This document shows positions 8,425 through 63,136 of a stretch of DNA of 64,000 nucleotides, one piece after another. The position numbers and the translations under genes are program-made. The stretch comes from an uncultured Bacteroidaceae bacterium (lineage in GTDB: Bacteria; Bacteroidota; Bacteroidia; Bacteroidales; Bacteroidaceae): contig CALUJO010000005.1 in the NCBI GenBank assembly GCA_944320965.1, positions 1 through 64,000 of the forward strand, given 5' to 3'. How positions within the stretch are numbered: the first letter of the stretch is position 1; each line of letters starts with the position of its first letter. The notes beneath the pieces are model-generated. The model was given only the letters and a program-made list of their open reading frames with translations. It searched no databases and had not been told where the DNA came from.

Positions 8425-8490
8425 CAAAAAACCTCCTGCCTTTTCACTGAAAACCTTGAATGTTTTTGATGAAAAGGCAGGAGGTTTTTG
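8425..8490. terminator. bidirectional terminator between convergent genes
   Basis: Nearly perfect arms of about 21 bp (8425-8446 and 8470-8490; core CCTCCTGCC/GGCAGGAGG) with A runs on the left and a T run on the right end the PepSY-like gene. They also lie beyond the stop of the convergent MFS gene. Confidence 0.85.
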
Positions 8491-8595
8491 TATAAAACAT
8501 TGTACATATTTTGGGGTTTATATGCGCTTGTTTTTTGTTTACAGAAAGTCTTATCTGGTTTTCTTTTAAATTTTTTGTTCCAGATAAAAATGAAT

Positions 8596-28868: not shown

Positions 28869-30740
28869 TTATAAACCAAGTTTGTGAATGTTTACATTAG
28901 TAAATTCTGCTTCCCCTCCTTCAGAGTAAAGACGGAGTGAGTTGTAGACTTCTGTAGGGAATACCAGATTTGTCATTGCAATACGTCCGCCGTCAACGAA
29001 GATTTCGACAGAACATTTGTCAACGAATATATCAAGATGGTATGTCTTGCCTTCACACAATGAAAGTGGAGCCCATGTGCCAAGTGCGAAATCATTTATA
29101 TAGTTTACTGATTCTGTTTTACGACGGTCATGATTTTCCTTGAAATGAGGTTCAGCCTTTTCACCGAATTCTGTCAGTCCGCTTTCGGTTCTGTCCATTA
29201 TTATCCTTTTTGATTGCATGTCAAGGTATATCTTCACCTTTTCTCCTTTTGAGTTCATAATGTCAAATCCGGCAGTCTGTGCATTGTTCGGAGTTATATC
29301 CATCTCTATTTCAAATGCGCCTTCGTTGTTTGAAACAATGTCGTTAACTACTTTCTCACCGTTAAGACTGATGTTGTCAAATGATTTTGTTTCCTTGCGT
29401 AGCGCTTCAGTTTCCTTGACTGCGTTTGCTGCCATATATATTTCACCGTCTTTTGTGTAAAGTGAAAGTTCGCGTGGCAGTGCGTTTGCTCCTCTGTGCT
29501 GGCGGATAGGTGTTACATTTGCGTATTGCCAGTTGCTCATCCAAGGTACAGCTATGATGCGGTCACCTGTATTAGAGAAGCAGACTGTAGCATAATGGTC
29601 TTTTCCGAAATCAAGCCATTTGGAAACTTGTTTGTCGTTGTCGCATTTGAATTCCTTACCGTCAAATTCTCCGATAAAATATTCTGTTGCGCTGCCGCCG
29701 AACATGCATCCAGGATTGATGTTCACAATCATCACCCATTTCATATTGTTCTTGTCACCGTCAACAGGCAATTGGATGAAATCCGGACATTCAAACTGGT
29801 TAGGCTGCACTCCATAACCTTCGCCGAACTGACTTAGGTAAGTCCAGTCCTTAAGGTTTTCGGAAGAATAGAAACGCATGTTTTTGTCGGCTGAGACAAT
29901 CATATACCATTTCTGTGATGGTTCATACCAGAACACTTTAGGGTCACGGAAATCTTTAAGTCCGTCAAAAGGAGTCAGGATAGGGTTCTTTTCGTACTTT
30001 GTATAAGTGCGTCCGTTGTCAAGACTGTATGCCATGCACTGGATCTGTCCGTGTTCGTCGCTGGCAGAAGTATAGAATGCGATGATTGCGTCCTTGCCAT
30101 ATCCTGCACTGTTGAATTTGTCAACTACAGTACTTCCTGAGAATATGTGTCCGAGTGTGTCACGTGCGATTGCCGGGGCCAGGTGTTCCCAATGAACAAG
30201 GTCTTTGCTTACTGAATGTCCCCAGTGCATATTTCCCCATTTTGAACCGTAAGGATTGTACTGGAAATAAAGATGATATTCGCCATCCTTGTAAACAAGT
30301 CCGTTGGCATCGTTCATCCATCCGTAGAGTGGAGTATGGTGATACAATGGACGGTAATAGTCTGTGTTCTTTACTTCAAATGTATCAGAAACATTCAAGT
30401 CTTTCCAGCAGAATGCATCAGCAGGAACATTTCTTACTTTTACAATGACTTCGTCAGTTCCTTCAGATATCTTGAACGGAACATAGTAGTCTGTACTGTC
30501 AATTGCAAGACGTACATCCATTGCCATGTCGGCAGGATTTCCTGTGTAAAGCATGACTTTTCCTTCGTTGCATGATTCCTGAACAGGGAGTATAAGATAC
30601 TTTTCAGGATTTGTTATTTTCAGAACAGTCAAAGTGTCTCCGTAGTGTTCTATATTGATATTGCTCTTTTGTTGCTGGCATGCCGCAATTGTTGTGACGG
30701 CCAGTATTCCCAATCCGAATTTTGATAAATTATTTTTCAT
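28869..30740 (-). CDS. GH32 fructan hydrolase lipoprotein (levanase/inulinase type)
   Basis: This 623-residue enzyme has a lipobox ending at Cys21 (TTIAAC), so it is anchored in the envelope, perhaps on the surface. Residues about 30-135 form an N-terminal beta domain (DUF4980-like). The GH32 five-blade catalytic domain follows, with the nucleophile Asp144 in WMNDANG (141-147), the FRDPKVFW transition-state motif near 265, and FECPDF with the acid/base Glu. A beta-sandwich at the C-terminus ends the chain. It cleaves terminal beta-fructofuranosyl residues of levan, inulin or sucrose. Exo- versus endo-action is not decided. It is the third gene of the operon from the permease side. Confidence 0.93.
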   Translation of the reverse strand: MKNNLSKFGLGILAVTTIAACQQQKSNINIEHYGDTLTVLKITNPEKYLILPVQESCNEGKVMLYTGNPADMAMDVRLAIDSTDYYVPFKISEGTDEVIVKVRNVPADAFCWKDLNVSDTFEVKNTDYYRPLYHHTPLYGWMNDANGLVYKDGEYHLYFQYNPYGSKWGNMHWGHSVSKDLVHWEHLAPAIARDTLGHIFSGSTVVDKFNSAGYGKDAIIAFYTSASDEHGQIQCMAYSLDNGRTYTKYEKNPILTPFDGLKDFRDPKVFWYEPSQKWYMIVSADKNMRFYSSENLKDWTYLSQFGEGYGVQPNQFECPDFIQLPVDGDKNNMKWVMIVNINPGCMFGGSATEYFIGEFDGKEFKCDNDKQVSKWLDFGKDHYATVCFSNTGDRIIAVPWMSNWQYANVTPIRQHRGANALPRELSLYTKDGEIYMAANAVKETEALRKETKSFDNISLNGEKVVNDIVSNNEGAFEIEMDITPNNAQTAGFDIMNSKGEKVKIYLDMQSKRIIMDRTESGLTEFGEKAEPHFKENHDRRKTESVNYINDFALGTWAPLSLCEGKTYHLDIFVDKCSVEIFVDGGRIAMTNLVFPTEVYNSLRLYSEGGEAEFTNVNIHKLGL

Positions 30741-30799: not shown

Positions 30800-33163
30800 T
30801 TAAAATTTGATTTGTGCTGAGAATTCTACAGTAAACGGTCTTATGTAGCTTCCTGCCAGTACACTTCCCGCATATTTCTGTGCTTCTTCCTTGGTAACAA
30901 GTTCAGCTCCGGCAATACTGCCTTTGGCTCCTGTCTGGTTAAGGAAGTTTATTACGGTGCATCCAAGTGACAGATGCTTGTTAACCTGCCAGTTCAGACC
31001 TCCGAATGTCTCCCAACGGCCGTTGAAGTAGTATGCATCATTGATGTTGGCGTATGTCTTGCTGAAATATCTGAAGCTTGCCCATATTTTCAAATCTTTT
31101 GTAATCATATAGCTTGGGTCTATTTCCACGATATACTGCGGTATTTCTGCCACGATATTTCCAGTTGCGTTTATCTTTCCTACGTATCCGTCTTCAAATG
31201 TTACTGATGTTTCGTATTTCTTGTAAGTAGGTTTCTGGTATGTGAACAGGAAGTGCAGGTCAAATCCCTTGAACGGATGTGCAACAACATCGGTTGTCCA
31301 TCCCAAAGTCTTTATATCATAGTTCAGTGGCGCTGCAAGAATCTGGTTGTAGCCAGGGCGTGTCTCTGTTGCGGCTACAGAATGTTGCAGGTTCAATGTT
31401 GAGTTGTTGTTTGTCTTTGAGATGTATGAGAACAGTGATGTCATGCTGATCCATTTGTTGTTATAATAGATTCCGGCTCTTCCAAGCGGTACGGAAATCT
31501 TGTCGGTGTTAGGCAATGTTGCCGGAGCGAAGTTTTCAAATTTCGGATGTTGTGTAATGTATGTAAAGTCTCCGGTAAATCCAAAATCCTTTGTCAGTTT
31601 GTATGTTGCGGCAGCAGTAAGCGCATAATTTATCCAGTCATAGCTGAGTTTTGTAGGTTCAATCTTTGTTCCGTCTGCGCTGGTAGCACCAAGATGATAA
31701 TTAGGGAATCTTCCTACGTATTCACCTTTAGTGTTTTTAACAGCAGCATTTTCTCCTCTTAGAGCCTGGTACTCAATTCTTCCTCCATAGTAGATATTCA
31801 ACTTGTCGGTTATGTCCCAGTCGTGACTTGCATATATTGCCACTTTGTTTTCAAATCCTTTATAGTATTCGGATGCGTTCTTGTTGAAATCGTAGTAATA
31901 TCCGCTTCCGTTATATTTTCTGTTTTCAGAAGTAGCATAATTGGTATTATATAGTCTTACCGGATATGAGCCGTCTTCAGGTACAGACTGGTCGTACATT
32001 GTAGTGCTTGAAGTATAATCTATATTGTAGAACCATTCATTGATACCTATACGCCATGTGCTGTTTTCTCTTTTTTGCGAAATTTCGTTTGTGAAGAAGA
32101 ATGAATCAATGAAACCTCTGTTAAGGCATGACATTCGGCTTTGTACATATTTGCCGGTGTAAGGCTGCATTGTACCGTCTTGGGCAAGGTAATTGTATGG
32201 TATGCCAGCTTCATTCTGGTCAAGTGACATAGGTGTCTGCCAAACACATGAGCCTATAGAGTTGTCATATTTTGCAATTGTGTTAAGTTTAACCCCGTTG
32301 TCCCATTCATACTTGTTCATTATTGTTGCCTGGTGTCCGCGGTTTTCTACGGCATCATAAAGTGTTGTACTCTTTATTTCGCCTGTTCTCATGTCCATAT
32401 ACACCATCTCGTTGTCGGTTGGCAGATATGATGTTGTGCCGAGCTTGAATTTTCCGAATTCACTTACGCTTCCGTCACCATTATAGACGAATGGTGCAGA
32501 CTGTGTTGCATACATGTAAACCGGATGGCTGTTGCTGTAGTTGTAGATAACAGAGAATTCTCCTCTCTTGTCATTATAAAGTTTTGTAAGAGCAAATTTG
32601 TACAATTGAGTTCTATCCTGGAATGGAGTGGATTTGATATTGAATGTTCCCGGGTCGAAATCCTGATAGATACTTCCGCTGTAGTACCAGTCCTTAGCAA
32701 ATTCGCCGTTCAGGTTCAATGAAACTTCCTGTAGTCCGAAATGGTTTGATTTGTAGTTTAAAGTTCCGTTAAAGCCTTTTTGTCCCAGTTGTGAAAAGGA
32801 ATTCACGGCATATCCTATGTTTCCTGTTGTTATGGCAGTTTCGGAAATCTTCAGAAGTCCTACGTGGCTTAGACTTGCATCTGCTCTCCACAATGCATTT
32901 ACCGTATGAGGATTTGTTGCATAAGTAACAGGCACACCGTTTTCAAGAACGTTTACGTCTGCTGAAGGAAGTCCTATCTGTATTTCTCTTGGTCCGTTTG
33001 CACTTGCGGCATTAAGCATGACATTTCTGTTTCCTTCTTCTTTTGAAGAACCGTTGTCACTATTGTCTGCTTTTTCCTGTGCCGAGGCATTTGTTATTGC
33101 TATGCTGAACAATAGAAACATTGTTCCTGCTTTTAATACCTTTTGTTTAGCTGAGCTGTTCAT
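30800..33163 (-). CDS. TonB-dependent-receptor-like outer-membrane protein of the fructan operon
   Basis: This 787-residue protein has a signal peptide cleaved near ASAQ (residue 29), a polar linker, and a plug-like region (about 50-120; VNVLENGVPVTYATNPHTVNALWR). A beta-barrel follows that ends in a terminal phenylalanine (VEFSAQIKF). It lacks the carboxypeptidase-like N-terminal domain of SusC proteins, and no SusD gene is adjacent, so it is not a standard glycan importer. It is the first gene of the operon, just after the operator at 33256-33297. It may admit short fructans or sucrose across the outer membrane. An obvious TonB box was not seen, so passive or TonB-driven transport is open. 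Confidence 0.85.
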   Translation of the reverse strand: MNSSAKQKVLKAGTMFLLFSIAITNASAQEKADNSDNGSSKEEGNRNVMLNAASANGPREIQIGLPSADVNVLENGVPVTYATNPHTVNALWRADASLSHVGLLKISETAITTGNIGYAVNSFSQLGQKGFNGTLNYKSNHFGLQEVSLNLNGEFAKDWYYSGSIYQDFDPGTFNIKSTPFQDRTQLYKFALTKLYNDKRGEFSVIYNYSNSHPVYMYATQSAPFVYNGDGSVSEFGKFKLGTTSYLPTDNEMVYMDMRTGEIKSTTLYDAVENRGHQATIMNKYEWDNGVKLNTIAKYDNSIGSCVWQTPMSLDQNEAGIPYNYLAQDGTMQPYTGKYVQSRMSCLNRGFIDSFFFTNEISQKRENSTWRIGINEWFYNIDYTSSTTMYDQSVPEDGSYPVRLYNTNYATSENRKYNGSGYYYDFNKNASEYYKGFENKVAIYASHDWDITDKLNIYYGGRIEYQALRGENAAVKNTKGEYVGRFPNYHLGATSADGTKIEPTKLSYDWINYALTAAATYKLTKDFGFTGDFTYITQHPKFENFAPATLPNTDKISVPLGRAGIYYNNKWISMTSLFSYISKTNNNSTLNLQHSVAATETRPGYNQILAAPLNYDIKTLGWTTDVVAHPFKGFDLHFLFTYQKPTYKKYETSVTFEDGYVGKINATGNIVAEIPQYIVEIDPSYMITKDLKIWASFRYFSKTYANINDAYYFNGRWETFGGLNWQVNKHLSLGCTVINFLNQTGAKGSIAGAELVTKEEAQKYAGSVLAGSYIRPFTVEFSAQIKF

Positions 33164-33297: not shown

Positions 33298-33509
33298 ATG
33301 ATATATATTGCAACAATATTTAAATCAACAGACTGTAAGAAATATGTGTATATAGGTATTTTATTTGTCTTTAATGTGTTTGATAATACATCTTTTATAT
33401 TAAATAAATATTTTAAAATAGTATATTTTATAAACTACTCTATTTATAGTCTTATATTTTAAAATACCTGTTTCGTAGATTGGATTTAACTGTAAATATT
33501 GGGAAAGAA

Positions 33510-33620
33510 ACGTTTTATGTTTTTGCTGAGAAGGTAGAGGGTTTTTACTTAAAACATTTAATGTTTTTGCCGGATACATTAAATGTTTTTGCCAGAAAAT
33601 CTTTAATGTTTTTACAGAAT
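33510..33620 (+). repeat. array of degenerate 22-bp repeats (array A)
   Basis: The core ATGTTTTT recurs at 33517, 33561, 33583 and 33606, and a weaker copy (GGGTTTTT) sits at 33539. Spacing is therefore 22, 22, 22 and 23 bp. The best units read CATTTAATGTTTTTGCC and CATTAAATGTTTTTGCC. There is no open frame through it. A second array with the same core and period lies at 63028-63136. Confidence 0.7.
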
Positions 33621-33707: not shown

Positions 33708-33748
33708 AAAAGACAATGCCAGTGAATAAATCACCGGCATTGTCTTTT
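33708..33748. terminator. terminator after the FKBP genes
   Basis: Arms AAAAGACAATGCC-GTGA and their complement (33708-33725 and 33731-33748, one mismatch) with a short loop lie just past the stop of the FKBP gene on the minus strand. A-rich and T-rich flanks allow termination in both directions. Confidence 0.8.
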
Positions 33749-62977: not shown

Positions 62978-63027
62978 TGTTTTATGTCTGCAGCTGTAAA
63001 AAGTTGCCGACTGATACACTTATAAAA

Positions 63028-63136
63028 GACATTAAACGTTTTTGACTGAAACATTCTATGTTTTGACCAAAAACGTTTAATGTTTTTAGTGAAATCCTTT
63101 AATGTTTTCGGGCAAATACCTACGGTTGTTTTTGCC
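63028..63136 (+). repeat. array of degenerate 22-bp repeats (array B)
   Basis: The core ATGTTTTT or a close variant starts at 63036, 63058, 63080 and 63102, exactly 22 bp apart, and a fifth weak copy (TTGTTTTTG) follows at 63126. The best unit is CGTTTAATGTTTTTAG. It lies between gcvT and the convergent ferritin gene and resembles array A at 33510-33620 in core, period and orientation. Confidence 0.7.

Follow-up and report, generated by a model that had tools for sequence, protein, structure and literature searches.

A dispersed intergenic element of four palindromes at a 22-bp period in an uncultured Bacteroidaceae genome, and its layout in other Bacteroidales

Results

Array A and two further arrays in the window

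The window analyzed here is a 64,000-nt stretch of a contig (CALUJO010000005.1) from an uncultured Bacteroidaceae bacterium, and its gene content includes pairs of FKBP genes and a GH32 gene with DUF4980. The relevant features are as follows.

8428–8510, no strand assigned: third array, four units, exact 22-bp steps
28869–30740: GH32 gene, downstream neighbor of the gene for a 787-aa protein
30800–33163, minus strand: gene for the 787-aa protein, upstream of the GH32 gene, 5' end toward array A and 344 bp away
33507–33612, no strand assigned: array A, five 17-bp near-palindromic units at 33507, 33529, 33551, 33573, and 33596 (steps 22, 22, 22, and 23 bp)
33551–33589, no strand assigned: best two units of array A, AAAACATTTAATGTTTT (perfect dyad) and GATACATTAAATGTTTT
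33708–33748, minus strand: hairpin AAAGACAATGCC...GGCATTGTCTTT, outside array A, in the gap that separates it from the FKBP stop codon
33771–34661, minus strand: FKBP-type peptidyl-prolyl isomerase gene, 3' end toward array A and 158 bp away
63026–63108, no strand assigned: array B, four units, exact 22-bp steps (22, 22, 22), between convergent gcvT and ferritin genes

The repeat array that a sequence-only reading of this DNA had claimed at 33510–33620 is real, with five units located and an end at 33612. The core proposed in that reading, TTTAATGTTTTTG, is well matched in four of the five units and weakly in the second (33529), and the period described as exactly 22 bp holds for three steps, the fourth being 23 bp. 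Symmetry about the central base is perfect in the third unit, AAAACATTTAATGTTTT. On the FKBP side, the hairpin at 33708–33748 next to the stop codon looks, from its sequence, like the FKBP terminator. A ACAATGCCGG-like stem, as present in this hairpin, also occurs beside arrays of another genome of the genus (G004; L117:4760–4790 and L118), and is perhaps a shared terminator sequence that accompanies the arrays. On the other side, the predicted 787-aa protein matched no Pfam family, and its start resembles a signal peptide. Array A was scored as lying between convergent genes by the gene-calling script solely because of a doubtful 65-aa ORF. No known RNA family from Rfam was matched in the window, and searches bearing on a mobile origin returned only weak, short phage matches and no plasmid match.

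A second array had been claimed 30 kb away and exists as array B, while the third array, at 8428–8510, was absent from that account. The statement that arrays A and B share a strand carries little meaning, since the units are near-palindromic. Units 1 and 3 of the third array are fully complementary, which yields a long predicted hairpin whose z is −8.2 on one strand and −8.8 on the other.

Genome-wide abundance

In the 2.57-Mb draft genome from which the window derives (G000), the two-unit pattern AAAACN7GTTTTN5AAAACN7GTTTT, allowing up to three mismatches, was found at 232 places as compared to 2 for the reversed control. Distances between units in a 464-kb sample peaked at 22 (53 occurrences), 44 (34), and 66 bp (20), and almost every distance apart from the peaks and those directly adjoining them was counted 0 to 3 times. 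No array was detected in Markov-shuffled or reversed sequence from a 464-kb part of the genome. Chance in A/T-rich DNA is ruled out by the excess over control, the spacing peaks, and the empty shuffles. A trained chain model identified 45 arrays in 1.21 Mb, corresponding to about 95 per genome. The genome-wide search proposed in the sequence-only reading places the array, as supposed there, in a dispersed family of roughly a hundred copies, and a core at chance frequency without preference for 22-bp spacing is decisively contradicted.

Architecture of the unit and the element

Each 22-bp repeat consists of an imperfect palindrome of 17 bp, AAAAC-N7-GTTTT, and a spacer of 5 bp, and the 17-bp dyad replaces the directional 13-bp core previously proposed as the conserved object. 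The unit step corresponds to about two helical turns; the earlier description of degenerate units in non-coding DNA, recurring on one helix face at a period near 22 bp, agrees with these observations. The unit profile is also symmetric about the spacer (TRNYA), such that an array can be viewed as a series of alternately oriented 11-bp half-sites; as the profile was symmetrized on purpose, the symmetry of its average is no independent test.

Steps of 22, 22, and 22 bp were found in 25 of 45 arrays, and an identical core plus one further unit at a 23-bp step in another 16. When 41 elements were oriented by sequence, the extra fifth unit lay at one and the same end in 15 of the 16 cases, an agreement that is not fully independent of the alignment, which took in 10 bp of flank per side and may hold part of the T-run of the fifth unit. 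A directional element of fixed size is therefore likely, with an 83-bp core from AAAA to TTTT and an optional fifth unit at one end. By inspection, a half unit is often present at this end. As regards the terminal inverted repeats expected of a miniature inverted-repeat transposable element (MITE), the element edges read AAAA...TTTT, which is the unit's own dyad. In some elements, units 2 and 4 of the oriented frame are complementary and have a GC-rich central part (for example CTTCCTGCC/GGCAGGAAG); their pairing would give a long hairpin that carries the third unit at its tip.

Dispersal of whole elements

Several arrays resemble one another across their full length. The arrays at C9:19825 and C9:43776 share 94% identity over 85 bp within unrelated flanks; for C9:43776 and C14:2190 the figure is 90.7% over 107 bp, and for C2:67195 and C10:4132 it is 85% over 132 bp. 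A partner at 78% identity or more over 75 bp was found for 19 of 45 arrays. Across all array pairs, alignment ends are concentrated at the limits of the core, with starts at 0 to +2 and ends at −5 to −3 (the spacer accounting for 5), or lie one unit beyond. Because similarity between arrays stops at the array edges, the arrays are dispersed copies that spread as whole elements rather than site clusters that evolved independently or convergently, in keeping with the earlier judgment that array A is not a recent local tandem duplication. Most copies are old and divergent. For 21 flank genes, no array position was conserved between G000 and two other genomes of the genus (G002 and G003), a weak test, since several orthologues were poor and G000 and G002 have too little flanking DNA in common.

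No signal of target-site duplication was detected, the words shared between flanks being of a length at or below that expected from mismatched flanks. Likewise, no match to the RAYT transposase domain (Y1_Tnp, PF01797) was found in G000–G004, G006, or G014, whose drafts are incomplete. Two arrays of G000 flank genes for a WG-repeat and a Sel1-repeat protein (C2:123373–126944; L074:3373–6944), and at this gene pair, the one checked, no array-flanked transposase was found.

Arrays with other letters in other genomes

Comparison of sequences indicates that the letters of the motif are lineage-specific and that the 22-bp palindromic layout is common to other genomes of the same family and of one other. 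In G002 and G003, units are AAAACATNNNATGTTTT-TGGCA-like and mostly number 4 to 8 per array. Arrays in G004, also of this genus, are built from the units AAGATGTACGCCATCTT and AAGATCGGCTCGGTCTT; all seven arrays from 54 kb have exactly four units, and the two-unit pattern of this genome occurs at 147 places there, as opposed to no more than 3 in G000–G003. Different letters again were found in other genera of the family (G006, G014, G028, G045, G009, G012, G035, and G021), the unit of G035 being GGTGAA...TTCACC, and a genome of another family in the same order (G071) has AAACCTTACTAGGTTTT-like units at 21–22 bp. Curvature of DNA by phased A-tracts was rejected as the common property, the units of G035 and G004 having no A-tracts.

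Periods of 12 to 40 were also scanned in non-coding DNA without reference to a motif. Lag 22 was found eight times, and every other lag zero times, in four genomes with few if any matches to the window's motif (G004, G009, G012, and G035). No lag of 22 was found in samples of two genomes from outside the family (G062 and G067); the samples scanned were 54–80 kb, which makes absence weak evidence. A motif learned from 80 kb of G009 gave 67 matches, as compared to 0 for the control, across its complete 3.29-Mb chromosome. These fall at 18 loci spaced like random points, and no link to replication was found, contrary to the suggestion of a replication element.

Neighboring units are directly similar rather than inverted in G002 and G003, and near-identical in G006. 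Two loci of G002 and G003 have arrays in common, one of which can be aligned: a five-unit orthologous array upstream of a GDSL lipase gene (L146:6716–6825; L194:3979–4088) aligns in register. At the DUF4831 gene of the same two genomes (L143:4700–5175; L197:3740–4140), a stretch of about 110 bp that precedes the start codon shows strong conservation, and in both an array lies just upstream of this stretch, the array regions aligning poorly.

Matches to the A/T-tract pattern in G070 were put down to composition, since controls rose equally or more. In the whole genome of G033, the reversed A/T-tract pattern was five times commoner than the forward one (117 versus 22), an excess that may reflect composition or arrays in which the 5-bp and 9-bp gaps have changed places.

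Genomic context and predicted folding

In G000, arrays are found behind genes, and the gaps between divergent promoters are almost devoid of them: 24 arrays were assigned to convergent, 18 to co-directional, and 1 to divergent gaps (approximate, from hexamer-based gene calls), as compared to 65, 218, and 98 for the whole set of intergenic gaps 110 bp or longer. In contrast, arrays of G002 and G003 show no 3' bias and often lie 110–160 bp upstream of start codons. Neighbors of the latter arrays are unrelated in function (thymidine kinase, S16, Nramp, sigma-54, MiaB-like, GH2, and others), and a single regulon was accordingly rejected.

Predicted folding was strong, with z below −3 on at least one strand in 80% of arrays versus 17% of control intergenic DNA and hairpin z values of about −4 to −9 for array B and the array at 8428. 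Units two steps apart were perfectly complementary in 9 of 103 cases in G000, as compared to 0.7 expected. A strong hairpin is nonetheless limited to about a third of arrays, and element orientation relative to gene direction is random (9 opposite, 6 same); a simple intrinsic terminator was rejected on these two grounds, although hairpins are plentiful and the arrays may act at transcript ends in this species. The earlier preference for a protein-binding over an RNA function is only partly safe: the random orientation speaks for it, whereas the good folding of arrays, including a subset with long hairpins, speaks against it.

Discussion

Array A is one of the dispersed, non-coding copies described above, and these may constitute a BIME/REPIN-like element copied by a protein that reads the tetrad of palindromes; we assign this reading about an even chance, and its protein step is inferred. 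Each palindrome would dock one dimer of the putative DNA-binding protein, with four such dimers lined up next to each other along a single helix face. Such a protein would copy the element to new places, as a functional counterpart of the RAYT transposase without being a RAYT, and may also organize DNA. If its sequence taste changes fast and the spacing of its subunits does not, letters would vary between species as the 22-bp tetrad stays; copies landing in promoters or genes would be lost, leaving those behind gene ends.

The same tetrad could instead serve chromosome organization, with a nucleoid or topology protein wrapping or gripping the 83 bp (for example an Lrp/AsnC-type octamer of four dimers, or gyrase as at the BIMEs of Escherichia coli), absorbing supercoils or folding DNA behind gene ends, and with spread by duplication being secondary. 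This explanation is credible enough to retain, though we think it improbable. The position of G000 arrays behind genes and between convergent genes is as it predicts, and Lrp proteins suit it in geometry, as their dimers bind clustered, degenerate inverted repeats of 13–17 bp placed two or three turns apart, with the DNA wrapped (PMC2995911); the 17-bp dyads at 22 bp agree with this description, and Lrp genes were found in 14 of 14 genomes tested. However, arrays in G002 and G003 are not behind gene ends, those of G009 are scattered as random points, and Lrp is equally present in G062 and G067, genomes without arrays in the sample. In addition, the sole Lrp detected in G000 has a helix-turn-helix, NARIPFKDVAAECGVSRAAIHQRVQRL, identical to one in G014 despite completely different motifs, and that Lrp therefore cannot make the letters species-specific and is ruled out as their species-specific reader. 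Copying by a tetrad-reading protein is preferred over chromosome organization because similarity stops at element edges, orientation and position look random, and the neighbors have nothing in common.

Bidirectional terminators or 3'-end hairpins, in which complementary units would form long RNA hairpins ending in U-runs, are an unlikely explanation. The excess of complementary units, the folding statistics, and the enrichment between convergent genes all point toward it, yet palindromic units fold well for any reason, strong hairpins occur in a minority of arrays without consistent orientation to genes, adjacent units in G002 and G003 are direct rather than inverted, and arrays A and B lie beyond separate gene-adjacent hairpins. 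We give still less credence to neutral minisatellites expanded by replication slippage with no binder: directly similar units in G002 and G003 and near-identical ones in G006 would be expected of slippage, but not a period fixed at 22 in many genera with no other in the motif-free scan, a copy number held near four, dyad symmetry, or dispersal of whole arrays. Operator arrays of one regulon under a cooperative repressor or activator are very improbable and largely refuted; tandem palindromes on one helix face, often a short distance upstream of starts in G002 and G003, recall such operators, but array neighbors are of unrelated function and the arrays of G000 avoid divergent promoters.

The best-known dispersed palindromic repeats are those of Proteobacteria, which RAYT transposases copy. 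The Bacteroidales arrays constitute a separate family of elements at the scale of an order, with a strict four-site architecture and no RAYT found. Somewhat more tentatively than the copying of array A itself, and at less than even probability, we suggest that four dyads 22 bp apart across genera, with letters replaced in each lineage, reflect a DNA-recognition system of Bacteroidales undescribed in the open-licence literature. If so, a fast-evolving multimeric protein would copy or organize tens to hundreds of elements per genome, and the replacement of letters by species under a fixed geometry would be a natural experiment in protein–site co-evolution. Array DNA as bait offers a direct route to the putative protein, and the family accounts for one kind of intergenic DNA that lacks annotation in these genomes.

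REP, BIME, and REPIN sequences are high-copy, intergenic palindromic units of fixed alternating layout and species-specific letters, which favor convergent and co-directional intergenic gaps (PMC3733652, PMC8049555). The element described here is similar in being high-copy, intergenic, and palindromic, with units in fixed alternating layout, species-specific letters, and a location in convergent and co-directional gaps; it differs in its exact 22-bp period and four units, in having no GTAG/CGTC tag in the unit or element consensus, and in the absence of Y1_Tnp. Membership of the RAYT-type REP class was rejected on the latter two grounds, the domain search covering seven array-bearing or same-genus genomes including G000. 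The arrays also resemble Lrp/AsnC targets, which are degenerate inverted repeats of 13–17 bp in clusters with two-turn spacing, bound in the case of Lrp by an octamer of four dimers (PMC2995911), but unlike these they lie at many unrelated loci, and species differ in the letters of their arrays but not in the Lrp helix.

Within the order of the array genomes, PINSR of Prevotella intermedia and Prevotella nigrescens is a short repeat without terminal inverted repeats, with about 180 intergenic copies, about three quarters of which are conserved between two strains (PMC4755523). Compared by description alone, PINSR differs in having 188 bp, one consensus, and no described architecture of phased palindromes (PMC4755523). 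In Porphyromonas gingivalis, the BrickBuilt MITE repeats a 23-nt unit up to about 23 times between a leader and a tail, and 22-nt repeats of strain W83 are mentioned without sequence or location (PMC4596501). Both are reminiscent of the arrays as intergenic tandem units of 22–23 nt in a Bacteroidales genome (PMC4596501), BrickBuilt departing from the four-unit arrays in its 23-nt unit, its high repeat number, and its leader and tail. PINSR and the W83 22-nt repeats may be the same kind of element as the arrays, seen one species at a time.
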